20,333 nucleotides of DNA from a virus, in the IMG/VR virus record IMGVR_UViG_3300009496_000108, positions 1 to 20,333 of that record, one strand, 5' to 3'. A program made the position numbers and the translations under genes. The stretch's first letter is position 1. Every line of letters begins with the position of its first letter. Shown piece by piece: positions 2,725 to 15,444 of the stretch. The notes under the pieces were generated by a model, which did not search any database, had not been told where the DNA came from, and saw only the letters and a program-made list of their open reading frames with translations.

Positions 2725-2761
2725 TTATATTATCTATTGTTATTCGTGTTAGTTTTGTAAA
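2725..2761 (-). promoter_or_regulatory. Phage promoter-like element, copy P1
   Basis: On the minus strand it reads TTTACAAAA, an 18-nt spacer containing ACGA, then GATAATATAA, about 20 nt before the SSB-like start codon. It begins 3 bp after the stop codon of the exonuclease gene. One of 12 copies with identical internal spacing. It should drive the SSB, Cys-rich, primase-helicase, hypothetical and thyA genes. Confidence 0.85.
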
Positions 2762-2763
2762 CA

Positions 2764-3504
2764 TTATAATGTCTGCTGAACTAGGTATTGAGCTGGGTCA
2801 AAGTCTTTATCTTTATAGAATAATCTATACTGATCTATCGCTTGCTCCACTTTATCTTTACCTCTTTCTAAAAACTGAGGAGAACAATCGAATATACCTA
2901 TATTACCAGTTAATTTATCCGCTGTTATGAATATCATATCCATATCAAAGTACGTTGAATAAATGTAGGCCTGGCTGTCATAGTTATACTCTTTTGCACT
3001 ATAAGCGAATTTATCTAAATTAGATGTTGTTTTAAGATCAACCACTAATTGTTGTGTGTTATTCTTAATATCGCCTTTCAGTTTCCACCATTCACCACCT
3101 AGTTCTAATACTCCTGGCACTTCGTATTCAACATCAATATCTTGTATTAATTCTTGACATACTTTGTTAGCCATTAGCTTATCCCTTAAGACGGATAATG
3201 CATCCGCTTCTTTCTGTAATAAACACATTTTACCTTCTGATAACTCTTTATATATTTTAGAGTTTCTAGTAGATGCATCTATTATTTTGTATTGTTCCAG
3301 TTTGTCTGGTTCAAGTACTAATGTATGAAAATAACCACCTTTTACTAAATTTGGATTACCTTCAATAGGTTTTTTGAAACTAAGTGGATCTCGCATTAAA
3401 GACCTTATATCTGAATTGCTTAAGTACTGTTTTCCAAAATCTCCATAATAATCGTCGTCATTCTCTAATCTTTTTAAAATTTCTAGCTTTTCTGTTTCTG
3501 TCAT
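2764..3504 (-). CDS. PDDEXK-fold exonuclease (RecE/exonuclease VIII-like)
   Basis: Probable double-strand-specific exonuclease that produces ssDNA for annealing-type recombination. At 246 residues it shows the PDDEXK core: D145 in KLKGDIK, D156 and K158 in VVDLKTT, then a Q-rich helix motif (YDSQAY, 175-180). Upstream, GGYFHTLVLEP near residues 56-66 matches the conserved G..hH.l.leP element of phage exonuclease VIII-like proteins. It overlaps the annealing protein gene by 4 bp, the RecE/RecT-like pairing expected for a two-component recombination system. The exact subfamily was not checked. Confidence 0.88.
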   Translation of the reverse strand: MTETEKLEILKRLENDDDYYGDFGKQYLSNSDIRSLMRDPLSFKKPIEGNPNLVKGGYFHTLVLEPDKLEQYKIIDASTRNSKIYKELSEGKMCLLQKEADALSVLRDKLMANKVCQELIQDIDVEYEVPGVLELGGEWWKLKGDIKNNTQQLVVDLKTTSNLDKFAYSAKEYNYDSQAYIYSTYFDMDMIFITADKLTGNIGIFDCSPQFLERGKDKVEQAIDQYRLFYKDKDFDPAQYLVQQTL

Positions 3505-4013
3505 AAAGTTTTTAGTATTTCAGCAGGTATTTCATACTTCCCTTTAATAGCTTCTAGACTTCCCCCTGCTTTTAGGAAAGCTTTAGCTTTTGTTAATGCT
3601 TGACCTTCTAATTTAGGCTTCACAGATTCTTTCTTACCGTGATCTGCGTCTTGAGTGTCATCAATTAAGAATAGATTCCCTAACGCATATTTTTTACCAT
3701 AACTAGAAGCACTACCGAATTTCTGCGGCATTTGCATACCCTTCTGAAGTAGATCTACTCCAACAACAGCTGTTGCATGTATAGCATCTACGCCGTCAGT
3801 AATAGTAGCTTTAGATTCTAGTATAGGAAAATCAGTGTTAGATATTAATTCTTCGCTGATCGTTACCGATACGCCTAGTCTTAATAAAAAAGGTTTTGTT
3901 GCTTCAAGGATGTCTTCGGCGGACCTGAAGTTGTACTTGCCGAAAGAGTTAAATCTACTTTTTTTCGATTTGAACTCGGTTTGGATTGTTGCTAATTTTT
4001 CGTTTAATTTCAT
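3501..4013 (-). CDS. erf: ERF-family single-strand annealing protein
   Basis: Promotes annealing of complementary single strands during phage recombination and concatemer or end repair. Of 170 residues, the N-terminal part has the ERF signature YNFRSAEDILEATKPFL (27-43) and the central part has MPQKFGSASSYGKKYALGN with a following LIDDTQDAD (near 95-123). The tail is short and probably flexible, with a helical end. It is coupled to the exonuclease by a 4-bp overlap and lies directly downstream of the sigma factor gene. It contains a one-mismatch copy of the repeated decamer (3777-3786). Confidence 0.93.
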   Translation of the reverse strand: MKLNEKLATIQTEFKSKKSRFNSFGKYNFRSAEDILEATKPFLLRLGVSVTISEELISNTDFPILESKATITDGVDAIHATAVVGVDLLQKGMQMPQKFGSASSYGKKYALGNLFLIDDTQDADHGKKESVKPKLEGQALTKAKAFLKAGGSLEAIKGKYEIPAEILKTL

Positions 4014-4085
4014 TCGTTCTTAGTTTAGTAGCTTATATATAATTACATACACTTGCTGTTTATTTACATCTATTTTTCACCTAAT

Positions 4086-4844
4086 TTAAAGATAATCAAG
4101 CACTTGCGTTGGGTCTACAGAGTCAATTAGTTTTTCTATAGCCTGCTTTTTAAGCTCTGAAACTCTCACATATCCGCTTGGTCCTTTAAAGTTTAACTCT
4201 TCAGCTATAGCTTTACCTGGCATTTTATCGCAGTCTAAACCGTAGCTTAAACGCAATACCTCATACTGAATATCTGTTAGATATTTTTTACATAAGCCAG
4301 TCAAGTAAGTATTCATCAACGCTATATTGTAAGGCTCTGACGTGTCAGGTATATTCTCAGACCATTTCTCAGCAGTATCAGAATCTATATCTATACTTTT
4401 GAATACGGAATTAAAGAAGATAGCTACTAACGCTTTGTCCTTGCCAAAATCTTTTTGGATCTCGTTTAGCTTGTATTCAGGGATTCTCATATCGCCTCTA
4501 TTAATGTTTATAGCGCGTCTAATTGTTCCTTTAATACGTTTAGCTAAGAATGATTTAATTGTCTTCTCAGGGTCGTCAGATTCAATCACTCTGTTAATAT
4601 CTAGCTTATCAACCGCTTTAATTAAACCTATAGATCCTTCTTGTATTAAGTCATTAATACTTAGCACTCCGGATGCTTGATCAGAAGTTGAAAACTTTCT
4701 TGCTATATTTTCTACTAAAGGTAAAAACTTAACTATAAGTTCATCTCTAGTATACTCATCCCAAAACTTACCTTCTAAATTATATATAGATTTTTTTACG
4801 TCTTCTTTGTATCTTATATAGTTTTGTATATTATACTTTTTCAT
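4086..4844 (-). CDS. Phage-encoded sigma-70 family RNA polymerase sigma factor
   Basis: A 252-residue protein with a sigma region 2: the segment LPLVENIARKF at 41-51 and the core-binding motif DLIQEGSIGLIKAVDK at 65-80, followed by a basic FLAKRIKGTIRRAI stretch (99-112) that would fit the promoter melting/-10 recognition part. Region 4 (about 184-240) has a helix-turn-helix with LTDIQYEVLRLSYGLD, KAIAEEL and RVSELKKQAIEKL. It should redirect host RNA polymerase to phage promoters. The 12 copies of a promoter-like element in this window are the obvious target. Its own upstream region has no copy, which fits expression by the host polymerase first. It overlaps the upstream gene by 14 bp. Confidence 0.9.
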   Translation of the reverse strand: MKKYNIQNYIRYKEDVKKSIYNLEGKFWDEYTRDELIVKFLPLVENIARKFSTSDQASGVLSINDLIQEGSIGLIKAVDKLDINRVIESDDPEKTIKSFLAKRIKGTIRRAININRGDMRIPEYKLNEIQKDFGKDKALVAIFFNSVFKSIDIDSDTAEKWSENIPDTSEPYNIALMNTYLTGLCKKYLTDIQYEVLRLSYGLDCDKMPGKAIAEELNFKGPSGYVRVSELKKQAIEKLIDSVDPTQVLDYL

Positions 4845-5025
4845 ACTCGTCTATTATTTTAAAGGCTTTCGCCATTCTATTGTCATCAGCATAGTATATA
4901 TTGCCGATCTTTGCCATCCACTCGTTAAATTCCTGTGTCATAGTTGGTGGTATTGTATCATTATTGTCTTGCCAAGTGTCGGCATAACAATCAAAGTTAT
5001 TTTCAAATATTTGTCCTATATCCAT
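4831..5025 (-). CDS. Small acidic hypothetical protein upstream of sigma factor
   Basis: A 64-residue acidic protein I do not recognise (MDIGQIFENNFDC..., ending IIDEYEKV). It overlaps the sigma factor start by 14 bp and is probably co-expressed with it. There is no promoter repeat upstream; the 5' flank is A/T-rich with no obvious Shine-Dalgarno sequence. A role as a sigma or polymerase accessory protein would be a guess from position only. Confidence 0.72.
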   Translation of the reverse strand: MDIGQIFENNFDCYADTWQDNNDTIPPTMTQEFNEWMAKIGNIYYADDNRMAKAFKIIDEYEKV

Positions 5026-5130
5026 AATTCTATTTATTTTAATCCGTTAAAAAACTAATCTTACCCAAACCGTTGCACAGATCTACTATCTATTTATTTA
5101 ATACACAAGCTTTTTTTACTTTATTTCATC

Positions 5131-5150
5131 ACCAACATTAAAACGTTGGT
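5131..5150. repeat. Hairpin with conserved CATTAAAACG loop, copy 1
   Basis: ACCAA and TTGGT pair around the loop CATTAAAACG. The same loop occurs with different stems at 5696-5722 and 5730-5758. It is followed at 5159-5186 by a second hairpin (GATAAGAAGC pairing with GCTTTCTTATC, one bulged base). Both lie in the 167-bp gap 3' of the gene at 5193-5408; this gap otherwise holds no gene that I can see. Confidence 0.6.
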
Positions 5151-5192
5151 CAACAGTTGATAAGAAGCATTACACGCTTTCTTATCTTGGTG

Positions 5193-5408
5193 TTAGCCAC
5201 AATTAATTAATTCTATTAATCTATCTGCAAGCCATTCTTGGTCTTCGTGGTCTTCTATGTATTTAAGGTCAACTTCTTTTAATTCTGTAATTAACAGTTC
5301 ACGTTGTTGGCTAACATCAAATAAAACCAATAACTCATCTACTGCTTCTTTAGGTTCTAAATGTCCACTTTCAACTTTACCTACTATTTGTTCAAATTTA
5401 TCTTTCAT
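5193..5408 (-). CDS. Small acidic helical hypothetical protein (cassette gene)
   Basis: A 71-residue, strongly acidic, helix-rich protein (MKDKFEQIVGKVESGHLEPKEAVDELL...). It is unrecognised, though its style resembles small proteins carried in bacterial gene cassettes. The stop codon lies inside GGCTAAC, close to the integron core consensus RYYYAAC. It is the last (most downstream) gene of the cassette-like segment 5.0-6.8 kb, which lacks both the phage promoter repeat and the TGCTATACAC decamer. Confidence 0.72.
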   Translation of the reverse strand: MKDKFEQIVGKVESGHLEPKEAVDELLVLFDVSQQRELLITELKEVDLKYIEDHEDQEWLADRLIELINCG

Positions 5409-5434
5409 ATCGTTACTTGTTTTATCTGTATTAC

Positions 5435-5613
5435 GTTAGGCAACATATACTTCTGTGTATGTTATTGCAATAAACGGTATTAAGTAAATCTTACTTTTAA
5501 ATTTGCACTCTCCTTTTACACCTACATTACTTTTAACATATCCAAAGCCTACGTTAAAAATTGGACTAAATGTTATTTGTTTGTCTACTAATTTCATAAT
5601 TACGTTGCCTAAC
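5435..5613. repeat. 10-bp perfect inverted repeat flanking a small gene (integron-core-like)
   Basis: On the plus strand GTTAGGCAAC at 5435-5444 and GTTGCCTAAC at 5604-5613 are exact reverse complements. In gene orientation the gene at 5436-5597 begins 7 nt after GTTAGGCAAC and its TAA stop lies inside GCCTAAC. These fit the integron core site consensus GTTRRRY and RYYYAAC exactly, in the order expected for one cassette. Confidence 0.65.
5436..5597 (-). CDS. Short hypothetical protein (cassette gene)
   Basis: A 53-residue protein (MKLVDKQITFSPIFNVGFGY..., ending ITYTEVYVA) with alternating beta-type hydrophobic residues and no recognisable family. It is bounded by a perfect 10-bp inverted repeat whose arms match integron recombination core sites, and the stop codon lies inside the downstream arm. 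The ATG at 5595-5597 follows an A/T-rich leader. A beta-rich small domain is all that can be inferred. Confidence 0.65.
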   Translation of the reverse strand: MKLVDKQITFSPIFNVGFGYVKSNVGVKGECKFKSKIYLIPFIAITYTEVYVA

Positions 5614-5616
5614 AAT

Positions 5617-5688
5617 GGCTAAAGTTAATAGCCTCGCAAGGTCTTGTTATAATTTGATGGTTAATATTAAAGGCTACTAACCTTAGCC
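5617..5688 (-). repeat. Large intercistronic hairpin, 18-bp stem and 36-nt loop
   Basis: Arms 5617-5634 and 5671-5688 pair over 18 positions. The two non-Watson-Crick positions are G-U wobbles only if the minus-strand (sense) transcript folds; on the plus strand they would be A-C mismatches. Same architecture as the hairpin at 6242-6314. It lies just upstream (in gene orientation) of the GTTAGGC core and the gene at 5436-5597. Confidence 0.65.
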
Positions 5689-5695
5689 TCGTCCG

Positions 5696-5722
5696 ATAAA
5701 AAACATTAAAACGATTTTTTAT
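5696..5722. repeat. Hairpin with conserved CATTAAAACGA loop, copy 2
   Basis: Perfect 8-bp stem ATAAAAAA/TTTTTTAT around the 11-nt loop CATTAAAACGA. In the sense direction the U-run on the 3' arm could also act as a weak terminator for the gene at 5776-5958. Confidence 0.65.
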
Positions 5723-5729
5723 ACTATAC

Positions 5730-5758
5730 GTTGTAAAACATTAAAACGATTTTACAAC
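5730..5758. repeat. Hairpin with conserved CATTAAAACGA loop, copy 3
   Basis: Perfect 9-bp stem GTTGTAAAA/TTTTACAAC around the same 11-nt loop as copy 2, with a largely different stem sequence. It lies 17 bp from the stop codon of the gene at 5776-5958. Confidence 0.65.
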
Positions 5759-5775
5759 AAAGTATATAAATAATG

Positions 5776-5958
5776 CTACATTCCGTAACTATCATCCATC
5801 ATCTTTTCAACCGCTTCCATTCCTTTAATAATTTTCTTAAATGGTTCATCTAATAATTTTGGGTCTAAATGAAATATATGACCGTATTCCTCTATCTTGT
5901 AATAGAAGTCAATTATTTCACTCATTTCCGCTTTCTTTATTTCTCTTATATCTGACAT
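5776..5958 (-). CDS. Small acidic helical hypothetical protein (cassette gene)
   Basis: A 60-residue helical protein (MSDIREIKKAEMSEIIDFYYKIEEYG..., ending EKMMDDSYGM) with no recognisable family. Internal methionines exist, but the first ATG follows an A-rich leader and is kept. The gap from its stop to the next gene downstream (5598-5775) contains three structured inverted repeats and no other gene. It is separated by 38 bp from the gene upstream. Confidence 0.7.
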   Translation of the reverse strand: MSDIREIKKAEMSEIIDFYYKIEEYGHIFHLDPKLLDEPFKKIIKGMEAVEKMMDDSYGM

Positions 5959-5996
5959 ATCGTTTTATTTAATCCGCACTATTCATATACTAAGCG

Positions 5997-6212
5997 TTAT
6001 ATGCAATTAAGCAAATCCGTTTCTATTTGGTTTATTTCGTCAAGGGTTCTGTTCAATGGTAAGTACTTTCTATGTGGTTCGTTATTAAGGTTGTCAATTT
6101 CAAACCACTTCCATTCATAAATCGCATCTTTAGGGTCTTTATAGTTAGGTGGTACAAATTCATTTTGCTCATCCTTAACACCCCAAAGTCCGTTCTTTTT
6201 AAATAATTTCAT
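5997..6212 (-). CDS. WG-repeat-like small protein (cassette gene)
   Basis: A 71-residue protein starting MKLFKKNGLWGVKDEQNEF, followed by VPPNYKD. This matches one WG beta-hairpin repeat (kngkWGviD...ePPkYd), a motif of bacterial surface and unknown-function proteins. I chose the ATG at 6210-6212 because the longer frame to 6305 would translate an 18-bp hairpin arm and gives a non-protein-like N-terminus. The cassette is flanked by a 9-bp perfect inverted repeat (5996-6004 and 6230-6238: GTTATATGC/GCATATAAC), with the TAA stop inside the downstream arm. Function unknown. Confidence 0.75.
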   Translation of the reverse strand: MKLFKKNGLWGVKDEQNEFVPPNYKDPKDAIYEWKWFEIDNLNNEPHRKYLPLNRTLDEINQIETDLLNCI

Positions 6213-6241
6213 TTCAAAATTGCTTAAAAGCATATAACACC

Positions 6242-6314
6242 GTATATAGTTTATATGCCTAGTTAATATTCGTTTTAATTCAAAGTGTAGTTTAATGGCA
6301 CACAAACCATATAC
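6242..6314 (-). repeat. Large intercistronic hairpin, 18-bp stem and 37-nt loop
   Basis: Arms 6242-6259 and 6297-6314 pair over 18 positions. The three non-Watson-Crick positions are G-U pairs only in the minus-strand transcript. Architecture is the same as 5617-5688, although stem sequences differ. It lies between the genes at 5997-6212 and 6331-6579. Confidence 0.65.
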
Positions 6315-6330
6315 AACACGTTGTAAACAA

Positions 6331-6579
6331 TTACATACCGTTGTATATTTGGTGCATTTTTACTGCTTCATTTCCATAACCATTAATTGCTAACTTATTT
6401 GCCAACTTAAATACTTCGGTATGCAACTGCTCGCTATCGCTTTCACAACTATGCGTATAATTAATAGCTTCTAATAGCTCTTTTGCAATGTCAGTTATGT
6501 CTTCTTGTCTAAAAAAAGAACAGTTATTCTCATTAAATCCGTGTTCTTCAAATATATTTATTATTTTTTGTAGTTCCAT
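6331..6579 (-). CDS. Hypothetical protein (cassette gene)
   Basis: An 82-residue acidic, helical protein (MELQKIINIFEEHGFNENNCSFF..., ending AVKMHQIYNGM). No family recognised; the spacing of hydrophobic residues suggests a compact all-helical fold. It follows an A/T-rich leader and precedes the large hairpin at 6242-6314. Gene style and structured spacer match its cassette neighbours. Confidence 0.75.
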   Translation of the reverse strand: MELQKIINIFEEHGFNENNCSFFRQEDITDIAKELLEAINYTHSCESDSEQLHTEVFKLANKLAINGYGNEAVKMHQIYNGM

Positions 6580-6639
6580 TTTTGTTAATTTTAATTATTA
6601 TTCAACGCTACTAATCATACACTTTCAAGTTGTAAGTAA

Positions 6640-6804
6640 TTACAAGCGTTCTATTATTTCATCTAATTGGTCAGTGTTGTGTAATTGGCAGTTATTATAA
6701 GCGAAATCCTTTAAATCTTCAACCGCTTGTAACTTCCCTTCGGTATTGCTAACAACGGGTAAAATTAATTCTTTAACTACCTTTATAAAAGCCTCCTTAG
6801 TCAT
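6640..6804 (-). CDS. Hypothetical helical protein (cassette gene)
   Basis: A 54-residue protein starting MTKEAFIKVVKELI and ending QLDEIIERL; no family recognised. The frame could begin at 6831 (nine residues more, overlapping the HTH gene stop by 7 bp). I prefer 6804 because the sequence just before it, GTTGTTATGGCA, resembles the core-like sites preceding other genes in this segment, and AAGGAGG immediately after the ATG is coding. It is the first gene of the cassette-like segment in transcription order. Confidence 0.6.
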   Translation of the reverse strand: MTKEAFIKVVKELILPVVSNTEGKLQAVEDLKDFAYNNCQLHNTDQLDEIIERL

Positions 6805-6824
6805 TGCCATAACAACATCGCCAT

Positions 6825-7448
6825 CTACCATAGTTGTTGGTTTAGTAATTCTTTTTCTTTTTTAAGTTCATTACTCATGTTTCTATATATAGTTCTGCTA
6901 GAACACTTTAAAGTTTCAGCTAACTTAACCATAGTTATAATTTCGTTTTCGTGGTTAATAAAAATCATAGCATCGTATATTTCACTGCTGGATATTTTAG
7001 ATCTACCTACTAGCTTACCTACTATAGAGAGCTTTTGTCGCATATCAAGACCGCTATAATCCTTAAAGATTACTTTACGTAACTTATTAGGAGGAGGTGT
7101 TTCGAGATCCATTAAAGACACATCGTATATCATGCTTTGTAGTAGTTGCTCTGAAACTTTAAACGTAACAAATCCTGCTTTCTTATTACATATATACTTA
7201 GACATCGCTTCAAAGCCTTCTTGATCCATCTGAGGATTCAAGTACCATAATACATACAAATGCCATTTAAGACTCCTATATGTATTGATTTTAGCTTTAG
7301 AATTAAATAGTGTATAGCATTGACGTGTACCCGCTTCGTAGTAATTACCCCAATCAAATACTTCTGTTGGTTTGTCATCTACTGGATCACATCTATAGAA
7401 TATCCTATGACGATCTAAATATGATGTATCTCTTGTATAATGCGACAT
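6825..7448 (-). CDS. Protein with C-terminal helix-turn-helix, candidate regulator
   Basis: A 207-residue protein of unrecognised family. The N-terminal ~130 residues are aromatic-rich (WGNYYEAG, LKWHLYVLWYL). The last ~40 residues look like a DNA-binding helix-turn-helix: MVKLAETLKCSSRTIYRNMSN followed by a basic/acidic helix. Its start codon (7446-7448) lies inside a 50-bp imperfect palindrome (7441-7490) that recurs at 14423 and 15804, so it may control its own expression and that of the distant sites. It contains an exact decamer TGCTATACAC (7310-7319), here read as Cys-Tyr-Thr. A role in phage gene control or replication initiation is inferred from HTH plus palindrome only. Confidence 0.8.
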   Translation of the reverse strand: MSHYTRDTSYLDRHRIFYRCDPVDDKPTEVFDWGNYYEAGTRQCYTLFNSKAKINTYRSLKWHLYVLWYLNPQMDQEGFEAMSKYICNKKAGFVTFKVSEQLLQSMIYDVSLMDLETPPPNKLRKVIFKDYSGLDMRQKLSIVGKLVGRSKISSSEIYDAMIFINHENEIITMVKLAETLKCSSRTIYRNMSNELKKEKELLNQQLW

Positions 7449-7490
7449 TAGCCTCTTACTATTAAATAATTAACAAGCTATCGTCACACT
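7441..7490. promoter_or_regulatory. 50-bp imperfect palindrome, copy 1 (operator-like)
   Basis: In minus-strand orientation it begins AGTGTGACGATAGC, has an A/T-rich centre with GTTA and ATAGTAAGAGG, and ends GGCTAATGTCGCA. The outer arms are reverse complements apart from a few positions. It overlaps the start codon of the HTH gene. Related copies are at 14423-14472 and 15804-15851. Confidence 0.75.
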
Positions 7491-7530
7491 TTCGTTTCGA
7501 TGCTTCAGTTGTTTGTTTTGGCGGAATCAT
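7462..7530 (-). CDS. Possible 22-residue basic peptide
   Basis: ATG at 7528-7530 opens a 22-codon frame (MIPPKQTTEASKRKCDDSLLII) ending in the palindrome upstream of the HTH gene. It is the only protein-like reading of the gap between the 7553-7825 gene and the HTH gene. Too short to call firmly; it could be a leader peptide or chance. Confidence 0.35.
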   Translation of the reverse strand: MIPPKQTTEASKRKCDDSLLII

Positions 7531-7552
7531 AATATTTATTGAAAATAAATAA

Positions 7553-7825
7553 TTACCGGTCATTCAATCGTTTTTGCAGCACCTCTATCTGATCATTAAT
7601 TTGAGGTACTAATTCATACTGCTCTGTTGCTATGTACTCCAATCGTTTAGCTCTAAGTACATTTAACTCCTCTTCTAAAGTTAAATATGCTTTAGGCTTT
7701 TTACCAGAATACTTATCCATTTGTATTTCGAAGTCAGCATCCCACTGTTGTTGCTTTTCAACTAACTTCTCCATTACTTTTGTTGAAACTACTTCTGCTA
7801 ACTTTTCAATTTGTTTATCAGTCAT
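7553..7825 (-). CDS. Coiled-coil hypothetical protein
   Basis: A 90-residue, highly charged protein that is almost entirely helical: MTDKQIEKLAEVVSTKVMEK, then a short GKKPKAYLTL break, then a heptad-rich C-terminal half (EELNVLRAKRLEYIATEQYELV...). The pattern suggests a dimeric coiled coil. No family recognised. First gene after promoter copy P2. Confidence 0.78.
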   Translation of the reverse strand: MTDKQIEKLAEVVSTKVMEKLVEKQQQWDADFEIQMDKYSGKKPKAYLTLEEELNVLRAKRLEYIATEQYELVPQINDQIEVLQKRLNDR

Positions 7826-7837
7826 TTTTTATATTTA

Positions 7838-7874
7838 TTATATTATCTATTGCCGCTCGTAGCGGTTCCGTATT
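7838..7874 (-). promoter_or_regulatory. Phage promoter-like element, copy P2
   Basis: GATAATATAA 13 nt before the start of the 7553-7825 gene and invariant ACGA in the 18-nt spacer. The distal box is diverged (AATACGGAA), where it overlaps the stop codon of the upstream gene (7873-7875). Confidence 0.75.
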
Positions 7875-8343: not shown

Positions 8344-8345
8344 AG

Positions 8346-8564: not shown

Positions 8565-8578
8565 AAGTTTATTGTTTA

Positions 8579-8615
8579 TTATATTATCGTTACTTGTTCG
8601 TGTTTAGTTTGTAAA
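8579..8615 (-). promoter_or_regulatory. Phage promoter-like element, copy P3
   Basis: Reads TTTACAAAC, 18-nt spacer with ACGA, GATAATATAA on the minus strand. It sits between the stop of the 8619-8783 gene and the KTSC start, as expected for a promoter at an operon boundary. Confidence 0.85.
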
Positions 8616-8618
8616 TTA

Positions 8619-9507: not shown

Positions 9508-9511
9508 ACAA

Positions 9512-9548
9512 ATATATTATCGATAAGTGATCGTGTTAGTTTTGTAAC
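9512..9548 (-). promoter_or_regulatory. Phage promoter-like element, copy P4
   Basis: GTTACAAAA, 18-nt spacer with ACGA, GATAATATAT on the minus strand. It starts at the last base of the stop codon of the 9548-9715 gene and ends 5 nt before the 9403-9507 start codon. Confidence 0.85.
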
Positions 9549-9715: not shown

Positions 9716-9717
9716 AA

Positions 9718-10330: not shown

Positions 10331-10331
10331 A

Positions 10332-10550
10332 TTATTGGGTTTTATTTGATTTTTCTATTAATTCGGCAATATACTGCCATACTTTTAATTCTGTTTTATT
10401 ACCTTCAGCAACTAATACAAATTGCTCACGTGATATGTCACCACCGTAGAAGCCACACTCGAGGTCAACCACATCTCGACGGATCTGAAAGTTTAGCATT
10501 GAGATCTTAGCGAAAGCTTTGTCGCTAGCTCGGTTGTGTATAGCACTCAT
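10332..10550 (-). CDS. Small hypothetical protein
   Basis: A 72-residue helical protein (MSAIHNRASDKAFAKISMLN..., ending IAELIEKSNKTQ). Unrecognised. Its start overlaps the previous stop by one base, and one intergenic base separates it from the next gene. The exact decamer (10536-10545) begins at codon 3, read as Ala-Ile-His. Confidence 0.75.
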   Translation of the reverse strand: MSAIHNRASDKAFAKISMLNFQIRRDVVDLECGFYGGDISREQFVLVAEGNKTELKVWQYIAELIEKSNKTQ

Positions 10551-10783
10551 TAGTCTTTAACGAATAATTGTTCGCCGAATCGATACATAAACACTGAAAC
10601 ATAACAGTTATCAACGTCGCAGAAAGTCATAATAGACTCGACTTCGCCTATAGTAAGATCGCTATAGAACTTGTTATCGATTAAAAGTTTTGTAACTCGA
10701 GCTACTGAGTCGGCATATTCTGGGGCGTTACTATTAAGATTAACTAATAGTTTAGGCTGCAAGCGGTCATAAAGTGTTTTCAT
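10550..10783 (-). CDS. Small hypothetical protein
   Basis: A 77-residue protein (MKTLYDRLQPKLLVNLNSNA..., ending SVFMYRFGEQLFVKD) with an N-terminal helical half and a beta-rich C-terminus. Unrecognised. First gene after promoter copy P5, about 25 nt from its AT-rich box, and head of a five-gene run to 9548. Confidence 0.75.
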   Translation of the reverse strand: MKTLYDRLQPKLLVNLNSNAPEYADSVARVTKLLIDNKFYSDLTIGEVESIMTFCDVDNCYVSVFMYRFGEQLFVKD

Positions 10784-10807
10784 TATATTATATTTAGTTT
10801 ATTACAA

Positions 10808-10844
10808 TTATATTATCGAATATAGTTCGTGTTTATTTTGTAAT
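10808..10844 (-). promoter_or_regulatory. Phage promoter-like element, copy P5
   Basis: ATTACAAAA, 18-nt spacer with ACGA, GATAATATAA on the minus strand. It overlaps the last four codons of the 10833-11015 gene. Confidence 0.85.
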
Positions 10845-11015
10845 TTTTGTTTGGTTTACTAAGTCATTACCTAACATTTCGTAAGTTTCACCGTCTTCTA
10901 ATGAACACTCGTTTTTCACGAAATCCCATATTTCTCTGATGTACTGACCTTCACATCCCGGTTTGTTTTGTTTTTTGAAGTACTCTATAGTATCTTCATT
11001 CCAATAGTATTTCAT
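10833..11015 (-). CDS. Small acidic hypothetical protein
   Basis: A 60-residue protein (MKYYWNEDTIEYFKKQNKPG..., ending GNDLVNQTKITK), with one cysteine pair too far apart for an obvious metal site. No family recognised. Its 3' end carries the distal box of promoter copy P5. Confidence 0.72.
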   Translation of the reverse strand: MKYYWNEDTIEYFKKQNKPGCEGQYIREIWDFVKNECSLEDGETYEMLGNDLVNQTKITK

Positions 11016-11016
11016 A

Positions 11017-11154
11017 TTATTTGAATTTTGCCGCGACTTCGTATATTTCTTGTCGATCGTCTTTATCTAGGTTGTTGATGTTCAAGCTAGCGTATTGTTT
11101 CAGTGCATAGTGTATAAATATGCAATCGCTTTCTGTTAATTCTATATTTCTCAT
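11017..11154 (-). CDS. Small acidic hypothetical protein
   Basis: A 45-residue protein (MRNIELTESDCIFIHYALKQ..., ending IYEVAAKFK), predicted helical with a short beta start. It is separated by one base from each neighbour (10833-11015 and 11156-11476), so it lies in a tight operon. No family recognised. Confidence 0.68.
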   Translation of the reverse strand: MRNIELTESDCIFIHYALKQYASLNINNLDKDDRQEIYEVAAKFK

Positions 11155-11155
11155 A

Positions 11156-11476
11156 TTATTTAGTTTTATAAGGTGTTGTTTTTAAGTATGCTGCTTCAAA
11201 TTCTTGAGACTTTTTATAGTAAAAATCACCAAAGGTGTTTTCGCCATATAGTTGTTCGTACAAGGTTTTGAATCCAATGTATTGAACTTTTTTGTCGTTT
11301 ATAAAGAAACCTAATTCTATTTCGCTAATGTCGTGACCATACTTTTTACCTATTCCAGGAACTTCTGATACCATACTGTATACTCTTGCTTCTATTTGAA
11401 ACATACCCTCATCTTTAGTGAATTTAGTGAACACACTAAGATCCGTAATTTCATCTACTTTTTTAATTTTACTCAT
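11156..11476 (-). CDS. Hypothetical protein
   Basis: A 106-residue mixed alpha/beta protein (MSKIKKVDEITDLSVFTKFT..., ending AAYLKTTPYKTK) containing GMFQIEARVYSMVSEVPGIGKKYGHDISEIELGFF, which looks like a small beta sheet domain. Unrecognised. It lies directly downstream of the tRNA-like sequence and would share its transcript from promoter copy P6. Confidence 0.76.
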   Translation of the reverse strand: MSKIKKVDEITDLSVFTKFTKDEGMFQIEARVYSMVSEVPGIGKKYGHDISEIELGFFINDKKVQYIGFKTLYEQLYGENTFGDFYYKKSQEFEAAYLKTTPYKTK

Positions 11477-11498
11477 TTTACTTGATTTAATTTGTTAG

Positions 11499-11594
11499 TA
11501 ACTAGTGAGGAATCGAACCTCATACTCGTCAGTAGTATTTGGTTTGTGGAGTCAAAGCCACAATTATTTTAAGATACCAAACCATACCTAGTTT
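11499..11594 (-). tRNA. tRNA-like sequence, non-canonical (possible tRNA-Gln UUG)
   Basis: On the minus strand it has a canonical T-arm (TGAGG, loop TTCGATT, CCTCA) followed by CTAGTTA that pairs with AACTAG at the 5' end (6 bp). There is a long-variable-arm-like hairpin ATACT/AGTAT with a 7-nt loop. The anticodon-type hairpin TTGTGG/CCACAA closes CTTTGACT, in which UUG (Gln) is in anticodon position if one T is bulged. Departures from a normal tRNA: 8-nt anticodon loop, no clear D-arm, about 14 extra nt before the anticodon stem, and a class II-size variable region. A second 5' arm, TAACTAG at 11695-11701, gives a perfect 7-bp acceptor with CTAGTTA. It may be a degenerate tRNA, an interrupted tRNA or another tRNA-like RNA; no CCA is encoded. 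Confidence 0.55.
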
Positions 11595-11747
11595 CCGGCT
11601 CATTACGTGATCATTAATCGTATCTTTCGCCAATTGCTCTCATGCCATAACTCACCACCAATAATGCACCACACCGTATCTCCCCCCTGAGTTCCTAGTT
11701 ATACTTGCACCTGGATTTTATAGTTCATACCTTGTTGAGCTTTGTTA
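11595..11747 (-). other. Non-coding leader between promoter P6 and the tRNA-like sequence
   Basis: No convincing gene; only a 9-codon frame at 11699-11728. The minus strand is unusually G-rich, including a run of six G, and has AACTCA/TGAGTT arms (about 11651-11692) around a 33-nt loop. It also holds the second copy of the tRNA-like acceptor arm. Together with 11499-11594 it could be one structured RNA of about 200 nt made from P6. Confidence 0.5.
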
Positions 11748-11978
11748 TTATTCAATTATATTATCGATACCGCTTCGTGTTAGTTCCGCAAGCATTATTG
11801 TCACCGCGCCGATCATAACTTCAGAGTGTATAGCACTGTATTCTTCGCCGTCTTGAGGAAAATCTTCCAATTGCCAATCAACACTATCTTCCATTAGTTC
11901 CAGCGTTACACTGGCAATACCCATTGCGATCTCGTCTAAAGCTACTGTTCTATCTGTTATTTCCATGTTGTCTTCCAT
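11748..11978 (-). CDS. Acidic hypothetical protein ending inside promoter P6
   Basis: A 76-residue strongly acidic helical protein (MEDNMEITDRTVALDEIAMG..., ending LTRSGIDNIIE). No family recognised. The last 15 codons carry the whole P6 promoter element, so this sequence has a double constraint. Exact decamer at 11826-11835, read as Ala-Ile-His. An alternative start is the internal M5. Confidence 0.75.
   Translation of the reverse strand: MEDNMEITDRTVALDEIAMGIASVTLELMEDSVDWQLEDFPQDGEEYSAIHSEVMIGAVTIMLAELTRSGIDNIIE
11756..11792 (-). promoter_or_regulatory. Phage promoter-like element, copy P6
   Basis: CTTGCGGAA, 18-nt spacer with ACGA, GATAATATAA on the minus strand. It is the only copy lying wholly within a gene, and its distal box diverges from TTTACAAAA as in P2. 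Nothing but the tRNA-like region lies between it and the gene at 11476. Confidence 0.75.
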
Positions 11979-12003
11979 TTACGTTTTAAATATATATACT
12001 TCA

Positions 12004-12300
12004 TTATTGAGGGAATTCTTCTCGCTGAGCGATTGCGGTGTGAAATGTCCACATGCACTTGTTAATAAATGATAGAGTACTTACCGATGCTTTCTCTATA
12101 GAAAAAGTGTATAGCATAGAGTTATAGAATTCCGTTAGGCCCGGATCGCTTTTGCACCAGTCTTTCTTAAAGCCCTCATAGAAATCACCTTGCATAAAGT
12201 TCATACCTATTATTTTACGTTGCTTGTTATACTCTAAGTATATCCACCGATCGTCATCTTCACACCATACGTGTTCTACTTTGTCTATATCGTAATTCAT
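12004..12300 (-). CDS. Hypothetical protein
   Basis: A 98-residue protein rich in aromatic and acidic residues (MNYDIDKVEHVWCEDDDRWI..., with NFMQGDFYEGFKKDW). Unrecognised. Its start overlaps the stop of the upstream gene by one base. Exact decamer at 12107-12116, read as Leu-Tyr-Thr. Confidence 0.76.
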   Translation of the reverse strand: MNYDIDKVEHVWCEDDDRWIYLEYNKQRKIIGMNFMQGDFYEGFKKDWCKSDPGLTEFYNSMLYTFSIEKASVSTLSFINKCMWTFHTAIAQREEFPQ

Positions 12301-12569
12301 TAGTTCTGACAGTTTTTGTTGTTAAAGTTCATTAAGTGTTGGATGCGATCAACGTGGTTCGGTATTAATTCTCGCTTGTAGTAATATCCGTGATTACTAC
12401 TTTCTTTAAGTAATAACTTATTGATTTGGTACACCTGGGTTTTGTTGCTATAGCGATTAGGATTTTTAGTGCTCACTCTAACATAACCGTTAGTGTAGGT
12501 TATTCCGATTCTTCCGTCGTTTAATTCAAAATGTAGTGATCCGTTTTTAGTAATTTTAAATAGTTTCAT
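12300..12569 (-). CDS. Basic hypothetical protein
   Basis: An 89-residue basic protein (MKLFKITKNGSLHFELNDGR..., ending HLMNFNNKNCQN). The first half is beta-rich (SLHFELNDGRIGITYTNGYVRVSTK) and the rest helical and basic, which would suit a nucleic-acid-binding protein. No family recognised. Confidence 0.75.
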   Translation of the reverse strand: MKLFKITKNGSLHFELNDGRIGITYTNGYVRVSTKNPNRYSNKTQVYQINKLLLKESSNHGYYYKRELIPNHVDRIQHLMNFNNKNCQN

Positions 12570-12590
12570 AGGTATAGTATTTAGTTATTA

Positions 12591-12770
12591 TTAATTTTTA
12601 GGTACGTAAGTTAAGCCTTTATAGTTAAACCACTCTGTAATTCCGTCTTGTTCGTCGTATTCATTCCAGATAAAAGCGAATCTTTGTGGTAGATCGCCGA
12701 TCAAGTATGGTTTGAATACTTTACCGTTTAGACTTATTAGTTTTGATTTTAGAAATTTTACTTTGTTCAT
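12591..12770 (-). CDS. Small hypothetical protein downstream of promoter P7
   Basis: A 59-residue protein beginning MNKVKFLKSKLISLNGKVFK and ending NYKGLTYVPKN, beta-rich with a GDLPQRFAFIWNEYD core. I start it at 12770, not at the farther ATG (12860): the extension would simply translate the P7 promoter element and the 3' end of the neighbouring gene. The start is about 21 nt from the AT-rich box, as at other promoters here. Confidence 0.72.
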   Translation of the reverse strand: MNKVKFLKSKLISLNGKVFKPYLIGDLPQRFAFIWNEYDEQDGITEWFNYKGLTYVPKN

Positions 12771-12790
12771 GATTAGTATTTTAGATTCAT

Positions 12791-12827
12791 ATATATTATC
12801 GATACCGCATCGTATTAGATTTGTAAT
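12791..12827 (-). promoter_or_regulatory. Phage promoter-like element, copy P7
   Basis: ATTACAAAT, 18-nt spacer with ACGA, GATAATATAT on the minus strand. It begins 2 bp after the stop codon of the 12830-13045 gene. Its spacer is nearly the same as that of P6 (GATACCGC next to TATC on the plus strand). Confidence 0.85.
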
Positions 12828-12829
12828 TA

Positions 12830-13045
12830 TTATTTGATCGGTTCGTTGTAGTGATTCCATAGATTAGTGTGTGAATGGTTTTTGCCTTTACCGCTTGCAC
12901 CCTTCGACTCCATCTTCCAAGATTTATATTGTTTGTCGGTCATTTGACCACATTCTCCACCTTGTTTAACAACATTGTTGCGGTGTATAGCATTCGCCTT
13001 CTTCTGGTTTTCAACGTATTCGCACGCTTCTTTCATAGTCATCAT
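12830..13045 (-). CDS. Small basic hypothetical protein
   Basis: A 71-residue basic protein (MMTMKEACEYVENQKKANAI..., with GGECGQMTDKQYKSWKMESKG and a His-rich NHSHTNLWNHYN end). Unrecognised; it could bind nucleic acid or a metal ion. It overlaps the upstream gene by 4 bp. Exact decamer at 12983-12992, read as Ala-Ile-His. The true start may be the second or third methionine. Confidence 0.72.
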   Translation of the reverse strand: MMTMKEACEYVENQKKANAIHRNNVVKQGGECGQMTDKQYKSWKMESKGASGKGKNHSHTNLWNHYNEPIK

Positions 13046-13236
13046 AGTATTCTTTTTAGTTGTTCCTTAATTAACATTATATCTTCGTCGCTTACTAAAA
13101 CTTCTTCATCGCCTGGTCGATCGTGTATAGTATCGTACATTGCATCATGAAAGTAGTTACCTACTATCTTATCTAAGCGATTAGCGATCTCTTTAATTTC
13201 TTCCCAGGTTAATTTGGTTGTGTTTATATTTCCCAT
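13042..13236 (-). CDS. Small acidic hypothetical protein
   Basis: A 64-residue acidic helical protein (MGNINTTKLTWEEIKEIANR..., ending EDIMLIKEQLKRIL). Unrecognised. It overlaps both neighbours, by 4 and 13 bp. It contains a one-mismatch decamer copy (13123-13132). Confidence 0.74.
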   Translation of the reverse strand: MGNINTTKLTWEEIKEIANRLDKIVGNYFHDAMYDTIHDRPGDEEVLVSDEDIMLIKEQLKRIL

Positions 13237-13409
13237 GTTATATCGGTTGGATTATAGTCTCTATCTTCGTAGTCTAATACTGAATGCACTTCGCCTCGGT
13301 ATTTACTTGCAAATTGTATAGCATCTTCGCGAGTATCGAAGTCGTAGTGATCTTCGCTATAGTCATCACCATCTTCACTGTGTGTTCTTAATTCTACTGA
13401 ATATCTCAT
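13224..13409 (-). CDS. Very acidic small hypothetical protein
   Basis: A 61-residue protein, about a quarter Asp/Glu (MRYSVELRTHSEDGDDYSED..., ending NPTDITWEI), in a beta-helix-beta order. DAIQFASKYRGEVHSV resembles the small DUF-type domains in which one helix packs on strands. No firm family. One-mismatch decamer copy at 13315-13324. Confidence 0.72.
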   Translation of the reverse strand: MRYSVELRTHSEDGDDYSEDHYDFDTREDAIQFASKYRGEVHSVLDYEDRDYNPTDITWEI

Positions 13410-13435
13410 AATATTGGTTTTTAGTTATTAATTAT

Positions 13436-13534
13436 TTATTCTTCATCTTCGTCAAATTCCGCCCACTCTAGGCAATCACCGCATCGATCGGAGTTCAGTA
13501 AACTTGGTTCCGCACCGCAACAATTACTCCACAT
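13436..13534 (-). CDS. Tiny cysteine-containing acidic protein
   Basis: A 32-residue protein (MWSNCCGAEPSLLNSDRCGD...) with C5-C6 and C18-x2-C21, then an acidic tail (FDEDEE). The CC/C-x2-C layout resembles a short zinc knuckle. Its ATG overlaps the stop of the upstream gene by 11 bp, which argues for coupled translation. Compare the tiny Cys-rich protein at 2307-2396. Confidence 0.6.
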   Translation of the reverse strand: MWSNCCGAEPSLLNSDRCGDCLEWAEFDEDEE

Positions 13535-13844
13535 CGGTAGATAGTATTTCACCTAAATGTCTCACATTCGAAGGTAGATTAGTACTTTGACTCCAGTAAC
13601 CGCGTTTCAACCAATTAGGTAGGATATTTAGTTTAGGTAACATGACCTTTAATACCTCATCGTGATTGTATTTTATGGTTTGACCCTTGTTATTGGTGAA
13701 AGTGATTTCTTGATTTCGACCGTACCACGACTTCCGAACTACGAAGTTTTTACGTGTTATTGGTGGAAATACCGCTTTTAGTTGTTCCGGTGTTAACTCT
13801 TTTAGTAGTTGTTCTTGAGTTTTAATAGTTTGTTCAGTAGACAT
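13524..13844 (-). CDS. Hypothetical protein, paralogue of 14789-15106
   Basis: A 106-residue protein with the core FPPITRKNFVVRKSWYGRNQ, EITFTNNK, then YNHDEVLK, LPNWLKRGYWSQSTNLPSNV and RHLGEIL. The same core recurs in the 105-residue product of 14789-15106 at well over half of positions, so the two arose by duplication. The conserved basic/aromatic patches (NFVVRKSW, KRGYWSQSTNLP) suggest nucleic-acid or protein binding, but no known family is evident. It is the head gene of the run after promoter copy P8. Confidence 0.82.
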   Translation of the reverse strand: MSTEQTIKTQEQLLKELTPEQLKAVFPPITRKNFVVRKSWYGRNQEITFTNNKGQTIKYNHDEVLKVMLPKLNILPNWLKRGYWSQSTNLPSNVRHLGEILSTDVE

Positions 13845-13897
13845 GATAATTTGGTTTTATAAGTTAATAATTAAATTCGTATTTTGTTAGTATTCAT

Positions 13898-13934
13898 ATA
13901 TATTATCGAACGGTGTTCGTAACGGTTTTGTAAA
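13898..13934 (-). promoter_or_regulatory. Phage promoter-like element, copy P8
   Basis: TTTACAAAA, 18-nt spacer with ACGA, GATAATATAT on the minus strand; the AT-rich box is 54 nt from the start codon of 13524-13844. The 66 bp behind it up to 14000 hold no gene that I can see. Confidence 0.85.
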
Positions 13935-14000
13935 GATCGAAGGTGTATATTTATTTTGTAGTATAAATAGTAGAGTAGTTGTAACTCACCTCTTAAGTGC

Positions 14001-14220
14001 TTAAAACACTCGATTTATTAGGTCAATTACGAACATTTCTTCAGTTTCGTCGTCTTCGAGTATACAATCGATCTCTACGAACTCTGTTATCGCTGCAATT
14101 GTTTGTTTTAGGGTTAAATAGTTTGATTCGAACTAAAAATGCGCTATTGTTTGGTCATTCCAGTAAATTGGCTTCTTCATATTCTTTGTTTTGATCTGTT
14201 ATACTTAATTTGTTATTCAT
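14001..14220 (-). pseudogene. Degraded small gene with stop and frameshift
   Basis: An ATG 1 nt from promoter copy P9 opens 21 codons (MNNKLSITDQNKEYEEANLLE) ending at a TGA (14155-14157). In the next frame, with no ATG, 43 codons at 14001-14132 read like real protein (FESNYLTLKQTIAAITEFVE..., ending MFVIDLINRVF). Reading through the TGA and skipping one base at about 14133 would join them via PNNSAFL. Two separate lesions are needed, so decay is more likely than a programmed frameshift; a sequencing error could explain one of them. Confidence 0.45.
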
Positions 14221-14257
14221 ATATATTATCAATACCTCGTCGTGTAGGTTTTGTAAA
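14221..14257 (-). promoter_or_regulatory. Phage promoter-like element, copy P9
   Basis: TTTACAAAA, 18-nt spacer with ACGA, GATAATATAT (last bases ATTGATAATATAT) on the minus strand. It directly abuts the start codon of the degraded gene and is followed on its far side by an inverted TGCTATACGC copy (14258-14267). Confidence 0.8.
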
Positions 14258-14422
14258 TGCTATACGCGGAAAAAACGGTAATTTTCAATAGAAAATACTA
14301 AGATTTAGCTAAATACCTAAAATGCTATACGCTGCCGCGTAGGGCGGAGTCTACTCTTCCGATTCTATTGCAAGATCAGGCCATTAAACCGCTACTTATT
14401 AGGTAACGGCTGGGTAATTAAG
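14258..14422. other. Non-coding segment with two inverted decamer variants
   Basis: No gene seen on either strand. It contains two plus-strand copies of AAATGCTATACGC (14255-14267 and 14320-14332), a GCCGCG / GGGCGG stretch and an imperfect hairpin around ACCGCTAC and GGTAACGGCT (near 14389-14410). It lies between promoter copy P9 and palindrome copy 2. Confidence 0.5.
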
Positions 14423-14472
14423 AGTGTGACATTAGCCTGTTATATATAATAGTAGTAGGCTATCGTCGCACT
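14423..14472. promoter_or_regulatory. 50-bp imperfect palindrome, copy 2 (operator-like)
   Basis: Begins AGTGTGACATTAGCC and ends GGCTATCGTCGCACT; the two 15-nt arms are reverse complements except at three or so positions. The centre holds GTTATATATAATAGTAGTA with a -10-like TATAAT. It lies 1 bp from the stop of the 14474-14614 gene, so it may act on rightward transcription. Confidence 0.75.
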
Positions 14473-14473
14473 G

Positions 14474-14614
14474 CTAGGATGATGATCCGAACTCTTGGAT
14501 GCATCGTGCAGTCATCTCTTGTTCGTCTGACCATCCTGAAGGATATTCCTCGATGTATGTGCATTGCACGTATTTGGATCCATCTGGTCTGGTAATTGTT
14601 TTGCTTGTGTACAT
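14474..14614 (-). CDS. Small hypothetical protein
   Basis: A 46-residue protein (MYTSKTITRPDGSKYVQCTY..., ending IQEFGSSS), beta-rich first half and one helix. Unrecognised. It shares the P10 transcript with the 27-residue gene upstream and ends next to the palindrome at 14423-14472. Confidence 0.66.
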   Translation of the reverse strand: MYTSKTITRPDGSKYVQCTYIEEYPSGWSDEQEMTARCIQEFGSSS

Positions 14615-14615
14615 A

Positions 14616-14699
14616 TTATTGTTTTATTTGGTGGATAGCTTTAGCGATTAATTTAAGTTCATCAAAGATGGTTAGAAAGAAATTGTTGATAGTTTTCAT
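14616..14699 (-). CDS. 27-residue amphipathic peptide
   Basis: MKTINNFFLTIFDELKLIAK followed by AIHQIKQ: a single amphipathic helix with hydrophobic Phe/Ile/Leu face. It starts 22 nt from the AT-rich box of promoter copy P10 and ends 1 bp before the next start codon, both typical of real genes here. It could be a membrane-associated or protein-binding peptide. Confidence 0.55.
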   Translation of the reverse strand: MKTINNFFLTIFDELKLIAKAIHQIKQ

Positions 14700-14720
14700 G
14701 TTATAGTTATTTAGATTCGT

Positions 14721-14757
14721 ATATATTATCAGTTGTTATTCGTAATGGTTTTGTAGG
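14721..14757 (-). promoter_or_regulatory. Phage promoter-like element, copy P10
   Basis: CCTACAAAA, 18-nt spacer with ACGA, GATAATATAT on the minus strand, 22 nt before the 14616-14699 start. A 5-bp hairpin (GGATC/GATCC, 14758-14772) without a U-tract separates it from the stop of the 14789-15106 gene and could be a weak terminator. Confidence 0.85.
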
Positions 14758-14788
14758 GGATCGAAAAGATCCTGTTAAGGAGGAGAGG

Positions 14789-15106
14789 TTATTTAGACCC
14801 CTCCGTTGCATCTGCAATGTCCGCTAGATGTCTAACATTAGTTGGCAGATTAGTTGACTGTGACCAGTATCCGCGCTTGATCCAGCAAGGCATTATGCTT
14901 AGTTTCGGCAACATCGCTTCAAGTATCGTATCGTGATTGTATGTTACGACTTGGTCTTTATTGTTCGTAAAGGTAATGATCTGGTTGCGTCCGAGCCATG
15001 ATTTTCTGACTACAAAGTTCTTGCGATTGATTGGTGGGAAGATTAATGCTTTTTCTTCATTAGACATTTTTGCGATTGCATTGGTAATTAATTCTTGACT
15101 GTTCAT
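14789..15106 (-). CDS. Hypothetical protein, paralogue of 13524-13844
   Basis: A 105-residue protein sharing FPPINRKNFVVRKSWLGRNQ, ITFTNNKDQVVTYNHD, and IKRGYWSQSTNLPTNVRHLA with the product of 13524-13844; N- and C-termini differ. Each paralogue has its own promoter copy (P11 here, P8 there). Function unknown. Just 3' of the stop is the sequence that on the plus strand reads AGGAGGAGAGGTTAT, repeated after the 15221-15391 gene. Confidence 0.82.
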   Translation of the reverse strand: MNSQELITNAIAKMSNEEKALIFPPINRKNFVVRKSWLGRNQIITFTNNKDQVVTYNHDTILEAMLPKLSIMPCWIKRGYWSQSTNLPTNVRHLADIADATEGSK

Positions 15107-15149
15107 AATTTACTGTTTTTATTTATTATTATTATTATTTGTTATTCAC

Positions 15150-15186
15150 TTATATTATCAGGTTGCAGTCGTGATGGTTTTGCAAC
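15150..15186 (-). promoter_or_regulatory. Phage promoter-like element, copy P11
   Basis: GTTGCAAAA, 18-nt spacer with ACGA, GATAATATAA on the minus strand, 44 nt before the 14789-15106 start. An ATT trinucleotide run lies between it and the gene. Confidence 0.83.
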
Positions 15187-15220
15187 TATTTTTTAAAATG
15201 CAGGGGTTGAGGAGGAGAGG

Positions 15221-15391
15221 TTATGGAATTGGCGTAAAATCCATCAGATCGTTGTACTCTGCGATCAAAGCATCGTACTGAGGTGTCAGATGTTCGAACC
15301 CACCGTCTCGGATCAATATCTCAAGAGAGTCGATTATAGATTCAAGGCGCAATTCAGGGTGGGCAATCATTAGAGATTTTTTCATGGTCAT
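15221..15391 (-). CDS. Small acidic hypothetical protein
   Basis: A 56-residue acidic helical protein (MTMKKSLMIAHPELRLESII..., ending LMDFTPIP). Unrecognised. It could also start at the third codon (ATG at 15383-15385). It is the rightmost clear leftward gene, starting 17 nt from the AT-rich box of promoter copy P12. Confidence 0.68.
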   Translation of the reverse strand: MTMKKSLMIAHPELRLESIIDSLEILIRDGGFEHLTPQYDALIAEYNDLMDFTPIP

Positions 15392-15407
15392 TATTATTTA
15401 GATTCAC

Positions 15408-15444
15408 TTATATTATCAGTAGCCGGTCGTAGTAGTCTTGTAAA
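15408..15444 (-). promoter_or_regulatory. Phage promoter-like element, copy P12
   Basis: TTTACAAGA, 18-nt spacer with ACGA, GATAATATAA on the minus strand. Like P9 it is joined on its far side to a plus-strand AAATGCTATACGC (15442-15454). Confidence 0.82.

Follow-up and report, generated by a model that had tools for sequence, protein, structure and literature searches.

The window analysed here, an IMG/VR virus contig of 20,333 bases (record IMGVR_UViG_3300009496_000108), was found to carry twelve copies of a 37-bp element on its minus strand, together with a gene for a sigma-70-family factor of 252 amino acids. The twelve copies probably act as promoters for host core RNA polymerase carrying this phage sigma factor, and so drive the early or accessory arm of the genome and its replication block. 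The phage would most likely be reprogramming the host RNA polymerase by means of a private promoter code. The sigma gene, which was overlooked in an earlier interpretation of this DNA (hereafter the sequence-only reading), provides the key to this feature as a whole. The copies and the sigma gene are as follows:

15408..15444, minus strand: putative promoter element copy 1, at the head of the early arm
15150..15186, minus strand: putative promoter element copy 2
14721..14757, minus strand: putative promoter element copy 3
14221..14257, minus strand: putative promoter element copy 4
13898..13934, minus strand: putative promoter element copy 5
12791..12827, minus strand: putative promoter element copy 6
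11756..11792, minus strand: putative promoter element copy 7, before a conserved non-coding RNA region
10808..10844, minus strand: putative promoter element copy 8
9512..9548, minus strand: putative promoter element copy 9
8579..8615, minus strand: putative promoter element copy 10
7838..7874, minus strand: putative promoter element copy 11
2725..2761, minus strand: putative promoter element copy 12
4086..4844, minus strand: sigma-70-family factor, 252 amino acids, with regions 2, 3.0-like and 4 (PHROG, Pfam, PDB, AlphaFold2/Foldseek); proposed reader of the element

All twelve copies described by the sequence-only reading are present at these coordinates, and the ACGA that it reported as invariant is found at its fixed position in 12/12, followed by 9 nt and then by invariant GATAATATA. 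The window has 12 of the latter on its minus strand and none on its plus strand, each with ACGA 9 nt upstream, while an order-1 Markov model predicts 0.48 GATAATATA per strand and 0.0 ACGA-N9-GATAATATA. Position weight matrix (PWM) scores of the copies range from 39.8 to 53.9 bits (28–48 in leave-one-out scoring), compared with 6.1 bits for the next best site in the window and 12.5 for the best score among 40 simulated sequences. Conservation also runs past the 37 bp on the 3' side, with a purine 12 nt beyond the G of GATAATATA in 12/12. The element is real and stands far above chance.

The element of the window can be parsed as a -35 box CAAAAC and a -10 box GATAAT (TATAAT with G at -12) separated by a spacer of exactly 17 nt, which falls within the 16–18 nt of sigma-70-type promoters. 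The contention of the sequence-only reading that the spacing is too long for sigma-70 does not hold, as its figure of 23 nt arose from the choice of TTTACA and TAATAT as hexamers. Its view that the boxes are not of the Bacteroidetes (Bacteroidota) sigma-A type was borne out, with GATAATATA invariant and neither a TAnnTTTG box nor TTTG present; flavobacterial sigma-A uses a TAnnTTTG -7 box (PMC9723704). The odd part of the element is not its spacing but a strongly conserved spacer box, AATACGA (approximately -28 to -22). Relative to the predicted +1, itself a purine, the -35 box TACAAAAC would occupy approximately -37 to -30, ACGA in the spacer -25 to -22, and the -10 box GATAAT -12 to -7, with ATA as its extension.

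The same geometry was observed in a family set of 76 IMG/VR loci, which were picked by the sigma gene and blind to the element, plus the window; the comparison was one of fragments, the IMG/VR records being partial, and related records are not independent observations. In a matrix search of these related phages, the check proposed by the sequence-only reading, the sigma strand was matched 466 times and the opposite strand twice. ACGA-N9-GATAATATA was found 243 times on the sigma strand and once on the opposite strand (reversed control, 0), with no instance in which the gap was 8 or 10 nt. Similarly, TACAAAA and GATAATATA are separated by N18 in 43 cases and by N17 or N19 in none. Across the whole of IMG/VR, the gap between ACGA and GATAATATA is 9 nt in 107 stretches, 5–8 nt in one and 10–13 nt in none. 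A sigma-70-type start site would be expected 6–8 nt after the -10 box, and the predicted +1, 12 nt after the G of GATAATATA, is a purine in 343/365 family sites (94%).

Placement relative to genes is also characteristic. Only 33 of 440 elements (7.5%) are located within an open reading frame (ORF) of at least 40 amino acids on the same strand, compared with 71% of random positions in the same stretches, and a start codon lies within 60 nt of 81% of elements but of 23% of random positions. The sequence-only reading had named equal frequency at non-boundary sites as an outcome unfavourable to its proposal; the counts instead favour gene starts on one strand. The distance from the predicted +1 to the ATG has a median of 20 nt among the family elements, resembling the median of 24 nt for F. 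psychrophilum leaders (PMC9723704). Within the window, the predicted +1 lies -2 to +51 nt from the next ORF start for 11 copies, in keeping with the reported closeness to start codons, but the copy at 11756 precedes a non-coding RNA and is itself located inside the 3' end of ORF 11748..11978. The description of the copies as abutting stop codons is accurate to within 3 nt for 5/12, but three others begin 27–34 nt past a stop; one of the twelve overlaps the upstream ORF by 12 nt. To state that almost every leftward operon is covered was generous, given that the 2764–7553 stretch, with the exonuclease, ERF, sigma and 207-amino-acid protein genes, has no copy.

Elements are limited to the early arm in the five relatives inspected for this feature. 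In the late arm of these five, no elements were found at operon starts, whereas a T4-like late sigma would be expected to have its promoters before structural genes; the few relaxed-pattern matches there are all either within long ORFs or at one coding overlap. With respect to the sigma gene, 403 elements are upstream and 24 downstream. An element is situated directly at the sigma start codon in 6/64 loci, the ATG following the G of the -10 box by 12–15 nt, which suggests positive feedback in some relatives.

The product of 4086..4844, a gene that shares its arm and strand with the elements, is a full sigma-70-family factor, for which core RNA polymerase binding and initiation are predicted. 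It matches PHROG 351 (E=1.8e-21), while its region 2 matches Pfam Sigma70_r2 above the cut-off (E=7e-8). Residues 25–134 match PDB sequences of sigma-28 and SigA, the best being sigma-28 (1rp3). The family alignment contains a region 3.0-like stretch, RGDIRIPEHKLNEIRK, which we take to recall RTIRIPVHMIETI of sigma-70, and a region 4 helix-turn-helix (HTH), YGLD...YVRVSQIKKQAV, conserved at residues 201–240 as YGLDCDKxxAKxIA...YVRVSQIKKQAVxKL. An AlphaFold2 model places helices at 191–201, 210–216 and 224–242. Foldseek returned sigma-factor matches over most of the length of this model, with a poor global superposition in each because a low-confidence linker joins the domains, which are well modelled individually but poorly placed with respect to each other.

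At least 176 IMG/VR contigs encode the sigma factor, and a tblastn search of 50,697 deposited phage records gave no match. Eight clear matches were obtained in bacterial genomes, all on contigs of metagenome-assembled genomes (MAGs), in bins assigned to Saprospiraceae, Sphingobacteriales, Flavobacteriaceae and Lewinella; bins carrying the names Aliivibrio and Ilumatobacteraceae were also among them and were taken for misbinning. As the bins are mostly of Bacteroidota, and relatives sharing the terminase infect Flavobacterium, Cellulophaga, Tenacibaculum and Maribacter, we infer that this marine, uncultivated phage lineage very probably has its hosts in Bacteroidota. Three records (G003, G024 and G041) each hold two full, distant sigma genes; among such two-sigma records is a 129-kb contig, which may be a permuted repeat or a fusion of two phage genomes.

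The association between element and sigma factor was approached from three sides. Beginning with the element, 50 records were taken from the 107 ACAAAAC-N4-ACGA-N9-GATAATATA stretches of IMG/VR, and 1–15 copies were found in each (50/50), on a single strand except in G041, with a total of one match for the reversed control. The sigma factor is encoded in 36/50 of these records, at 54–100% identity. In the other 14 the contig stops within the early arm, on the downstream side and near the elements, and in one of them (G031) the contig breaks inside the 207-amino-acid protein gene that precedes sigma elsewhere. Beginning with the sigma gene, the loci without elements (L158, L182, L183, L189, L193, L195 and L211) start less than about 2 kb from the contig end and have no upstream DNA. 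A further locus with sigma and no element, L171, was set aside as a counter-example: an 8-kb stretch that holds all ten elements of its relative L169 is absent from it, as are further stretches, and from this comparison L171 is a deleted or mis-joined contig.

The third set consisted of 35 records of at least 35 kb, picked by terminase alone and blind to both sigma and element. Two of these encode the sigma factor and carry 4 and 7 elements. Of the 33 without sigma, the element is missing from 30 and matched once in each of two others, while the last, a truncated contig, has 3 copies, all no more than 750 nt from its end. More than one copy is present only in the two sigma-encoding records and this truncated contig. 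The group lacking both sigma and element includes Elemovirus, two Cellulophaga phages and MW202828. This distribution indicates that sigma and element have been gained and lost together in the lineage.

Taken with strand, gene-start placement and fixed spacing, this co-occurrence with a phage sigma strongly supports the proposal of the sequence-only reading that the element is a phage promoter. Host core RNA polymerase and the phage sigma would initiate before the small early-arm operons, the non-coding RNA region and the replication block. The operon of the 207-amino-acid HTH protein and sigma would be under a control element of its own, termed element B (see below), and ACGA may be touched by sigma region 3 or 4 or by a partner protein. 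We infer the role of sigma as reader, the start sites and the order of events from these patterns.

Several observations sit less easily with a phage sigma as the reader. The late structural arm has no element, unlike that expected of a classic phage late sigma, and the sigma gene itself is mostly without an element in front. Covariation between sigma and boxes, examined by Mantel tests over 50 loci, was non-significant for -35 versus region 4 and for -10 versus region 2, and Mantel and column tests on these loci tied the box variants to no particular sigma residues. A weak signal between the middle box and region 4 plus linker looks like clade structure. Moreover, co-occurrence cannot fully separate sigma from other genes confined to the lineage, for example that of the 207-amino-acid HTH protein.

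In the foremost alternative, host sigma-A polymerase acts with a phage activator, for example this HTH protein, on TACAAA...ACGA in the style of T4 MotA/AsiA, leaving the phage sigma for the late arm. The location of the HTH protein gene beside sigma in 72/77 loci would suit such a scheme, as would the missing box/sigma covariation and a spacer box typical of activator sites. Against it, the -35, middle and -10 boxes are base-locked, as for a single reader, element B at the 207-amino-acid protein gene is a better candidate target for that protein, and GATAATATA differs from the flavobacterial sigma-A TAnnTTTG box (PMC9723704). On balance, an activator of this kind is unlikely. A leader RNA signal without promoter activity, either a processing site or a translation enhancer, would account for a conserved block directly before start codons in a host group without Shine-Dalgarno sites. 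Nevertheless, gaps of constant length (9 nt and 18 nt) whose fill varies, together with an unconstrained distance to the start codon (median 20 nt), fit DNA recognition, and the block also precedes a non-coding RNA, overlaps upstream genes and is absent before late genes, which makes an RNA signal very improbable. Least probable of all is a DNA-binding or replication/packaging site devoid of promoter function, which would explain many copies within one genome arm but neither their orientation strictly with transcription nor their placement at operon starts.

The boxes vary between lineages. Sister lineages have the element variants TTTGCAAAC (L177), TCGAAA (L207 and L214) and CACAAA (L208), the middle box is changed to ACGT (L173 and L175) or ACAA (L209), and the -10 box to GATAATAAT (L157 and L201) or GATATTA (L192). 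These variants look like a specificity code under change. As ACGA is invariant in the window and altered in some sister lineages, it appears to be a lineage-specific recognition box, and the suggestion that it forms a third contact is plausible. A bolder proposal, which we regard as tentative and somewhat doubtful, is that ACGA is a true third recognition element in the spacer, read by an added sigma surface or by a partner such as the 207-amino-acid HTH protein, and retuned per lineage (ACGA, ACGT, ACAA) to give orthogonal promoter codes among related phages in one host.

Phage sigma factors with private promoters include T4 gp55 (late) and SPO1 gp28 (middle). The system proposed here resembles these in that a phage sigma would redirect the host core RNA polymerase to phage promoters repeated genome-wide. 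It differs in that the promoters serve the early/replication arm and not the structural arm, in the rigid register of the -35, spacer and -10 boxes, and in the lack of tblastn matches to the sigma factor noted above. A likeness to group 3 sigma-70 factors (FliA/sigma-28) is evident from the best PDB match and from the presence of regions 2 and 4 within 252 amino acids, and the -10 GATAA recalls the sigma-28 GCCGATAA box; however, sigma-28 promoters differ from the element in spacing, in the -35 box and with respect to the ACGA spacer box. Middle promoters of T4 carry a MotA box, and the element, like them, combines a -10 box with a conserved box around -30/-22, although this -10 box is not that of host sigma-A and no MotA relative was recognised.

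The terminase family is common to Elemovirus, Pachyviridae and Pervagoviridae, phages of Flavobacteriia, at 31–48% identity. Elemovirus also has the divergent early/late layout and an early arm with the same exonuclease-ERF order, but the phages of all three groups have neither sigma nor element. The same is true of the nearest phage, MW202828, despite a terminase that is 67% identical. In the early arm of MW202828.1 (L251), a palindrome, GTGTCGTTAACGACAC, occurs just before several start codons as a position-equivalent but different control element.

No description of this element or sigma, nor of a private sigma/promoter pair in Bacteroidota phages, was found in the open-access literature. 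The primary sigma and promoter code of Bacteroidota are unusual. Uncultivated viral contigs with the pair number well over a hundred, and no deposited phage record among those searched has it. The pair offers a concrete guide to operons and start sites in these genomes, the variant promoters provide a natural series for studies of sigma specificity, and the pair could possibly serve as an orthogonal expression system for Bacteroidota. As phages with the same terminase but without sigma are also without the promoter, sigma gain and early-arm rewiring can be studied as one event.

Further features of the window are as follows:

6825..7448, minus strand: 207-amino-acid protein with a C-terminal HTH (weak HTH_11 match), found in 72/77 loci
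7441..7488, minus strand: element B copy 1, which holds the start codon of the 207-amino-acid protein gene
14425..14470, minus strand: element B copy 2
15806..15851, plus strand: element B copy 3, at the head of the rightward (late) arm
15667..15699, minus strand: weak candidate for a host sigma-A-type promoter, TTTG-N20-TAnnTTTG, at the head of the early arm
580..2286: primase-helicase gene, copy 12 of the promoter element (2725..2761) being upstream of both 2396..2704 and this gene
2037, 7318, 8044, 9064, 9890, 10544, 11834, 12115 and 12991, minus strand: 9-mer GCTATACAC

In these 72 loci the 207-amino-acid protein gene is upstream of sigma. Its product was modelled with a predicted local distance difference test (pLDDT) score of 89 by AlphaFold2, and the model gave no PDB fold match. 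Element B is an inverted repeat, TGYGACNNTAGC-N22/24-GCTANNGTCRCA, around a TAATAGTAA-like core, and its right arm often contains the ATG of the gene. Almost all of the 72 loci with this gene have it conserved ahead of the 207-amino-acid protein/sigma operon, of which it is likely to be the control site; it may serve as a control site for both the sigma operon and the late arm. Shortly past element B at the head of the late arm is GTAAGTATATAANGTAT (15880–15897, plus strand), which is conserved in six divergent genomes, always in the same relation to element B, and is a candidate late promoter. The host sigma-A promoter at 15667..15699 was retained only as a weak candidate, like matches being found in coding DNA of all relatives.

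Two conserved non-coding RNAs are associated with the elements. Downstream of the copy at 11756, within 11490–11745, is a tRNA-like RNA (11498–11592, minus strand) that was seen in 13 relatives. It is composed of an acceptor-type stem (ACTAG/CTAGT), a small stem-loop and a T-arm, GAGGTTCGATTCCTC, with a highly variable hairpin in place of the D and anticodon arms, and compensatory changes were observed at three pairs. ARAGORN and Rfam made no call on the window, this RNA included. In other loci (L030, L151, L161, L162, L177, L184, L204 and L218), repeated non-coding modules, such as AGAGTTTTACGGTATATAGCTCT, CTAGACGAGTAGCTTAATTAGGT...ACATAAGTGAATAGCTAG and GTGGAGGGCTTAGTACGGCTACGG...GAAGATCCTC, lie beside this RNA, mixed in differing orders in the manner of a cassette array. 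The second RNA, GGCCTGAYYTTGNAATAG..TCGGAAGAGTAGA, is located at approximately 14330–14381 (minus strand) of the window, at 2157 in L173 and at 715 in L175; in the latter two it begins exactly at the predicted +1 of the element.

The leftward (early) arm encodes a primase-helicase, an exonuclease, an ERF annealing protein, a gp88-like protein and many small proteins, and the rightward (late) arm opens with unknown proteins and GroEL. The 9-mer GCTATACAC is present nine times on the minus strand and not at all on the plus strand, within genes, and this strand bias is shared by G046 and G031 but not by G016 or G011. Three copies of GCTATACGC were observed in non-coding DNA on the plus strand. 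Two of the small early-arm proteins (13524..13844 and 14789..15106, both on the minus strand) are apparent paralogues, with the common stretch RKNFVVRKSWxGRNQxITFTNN and one element each.

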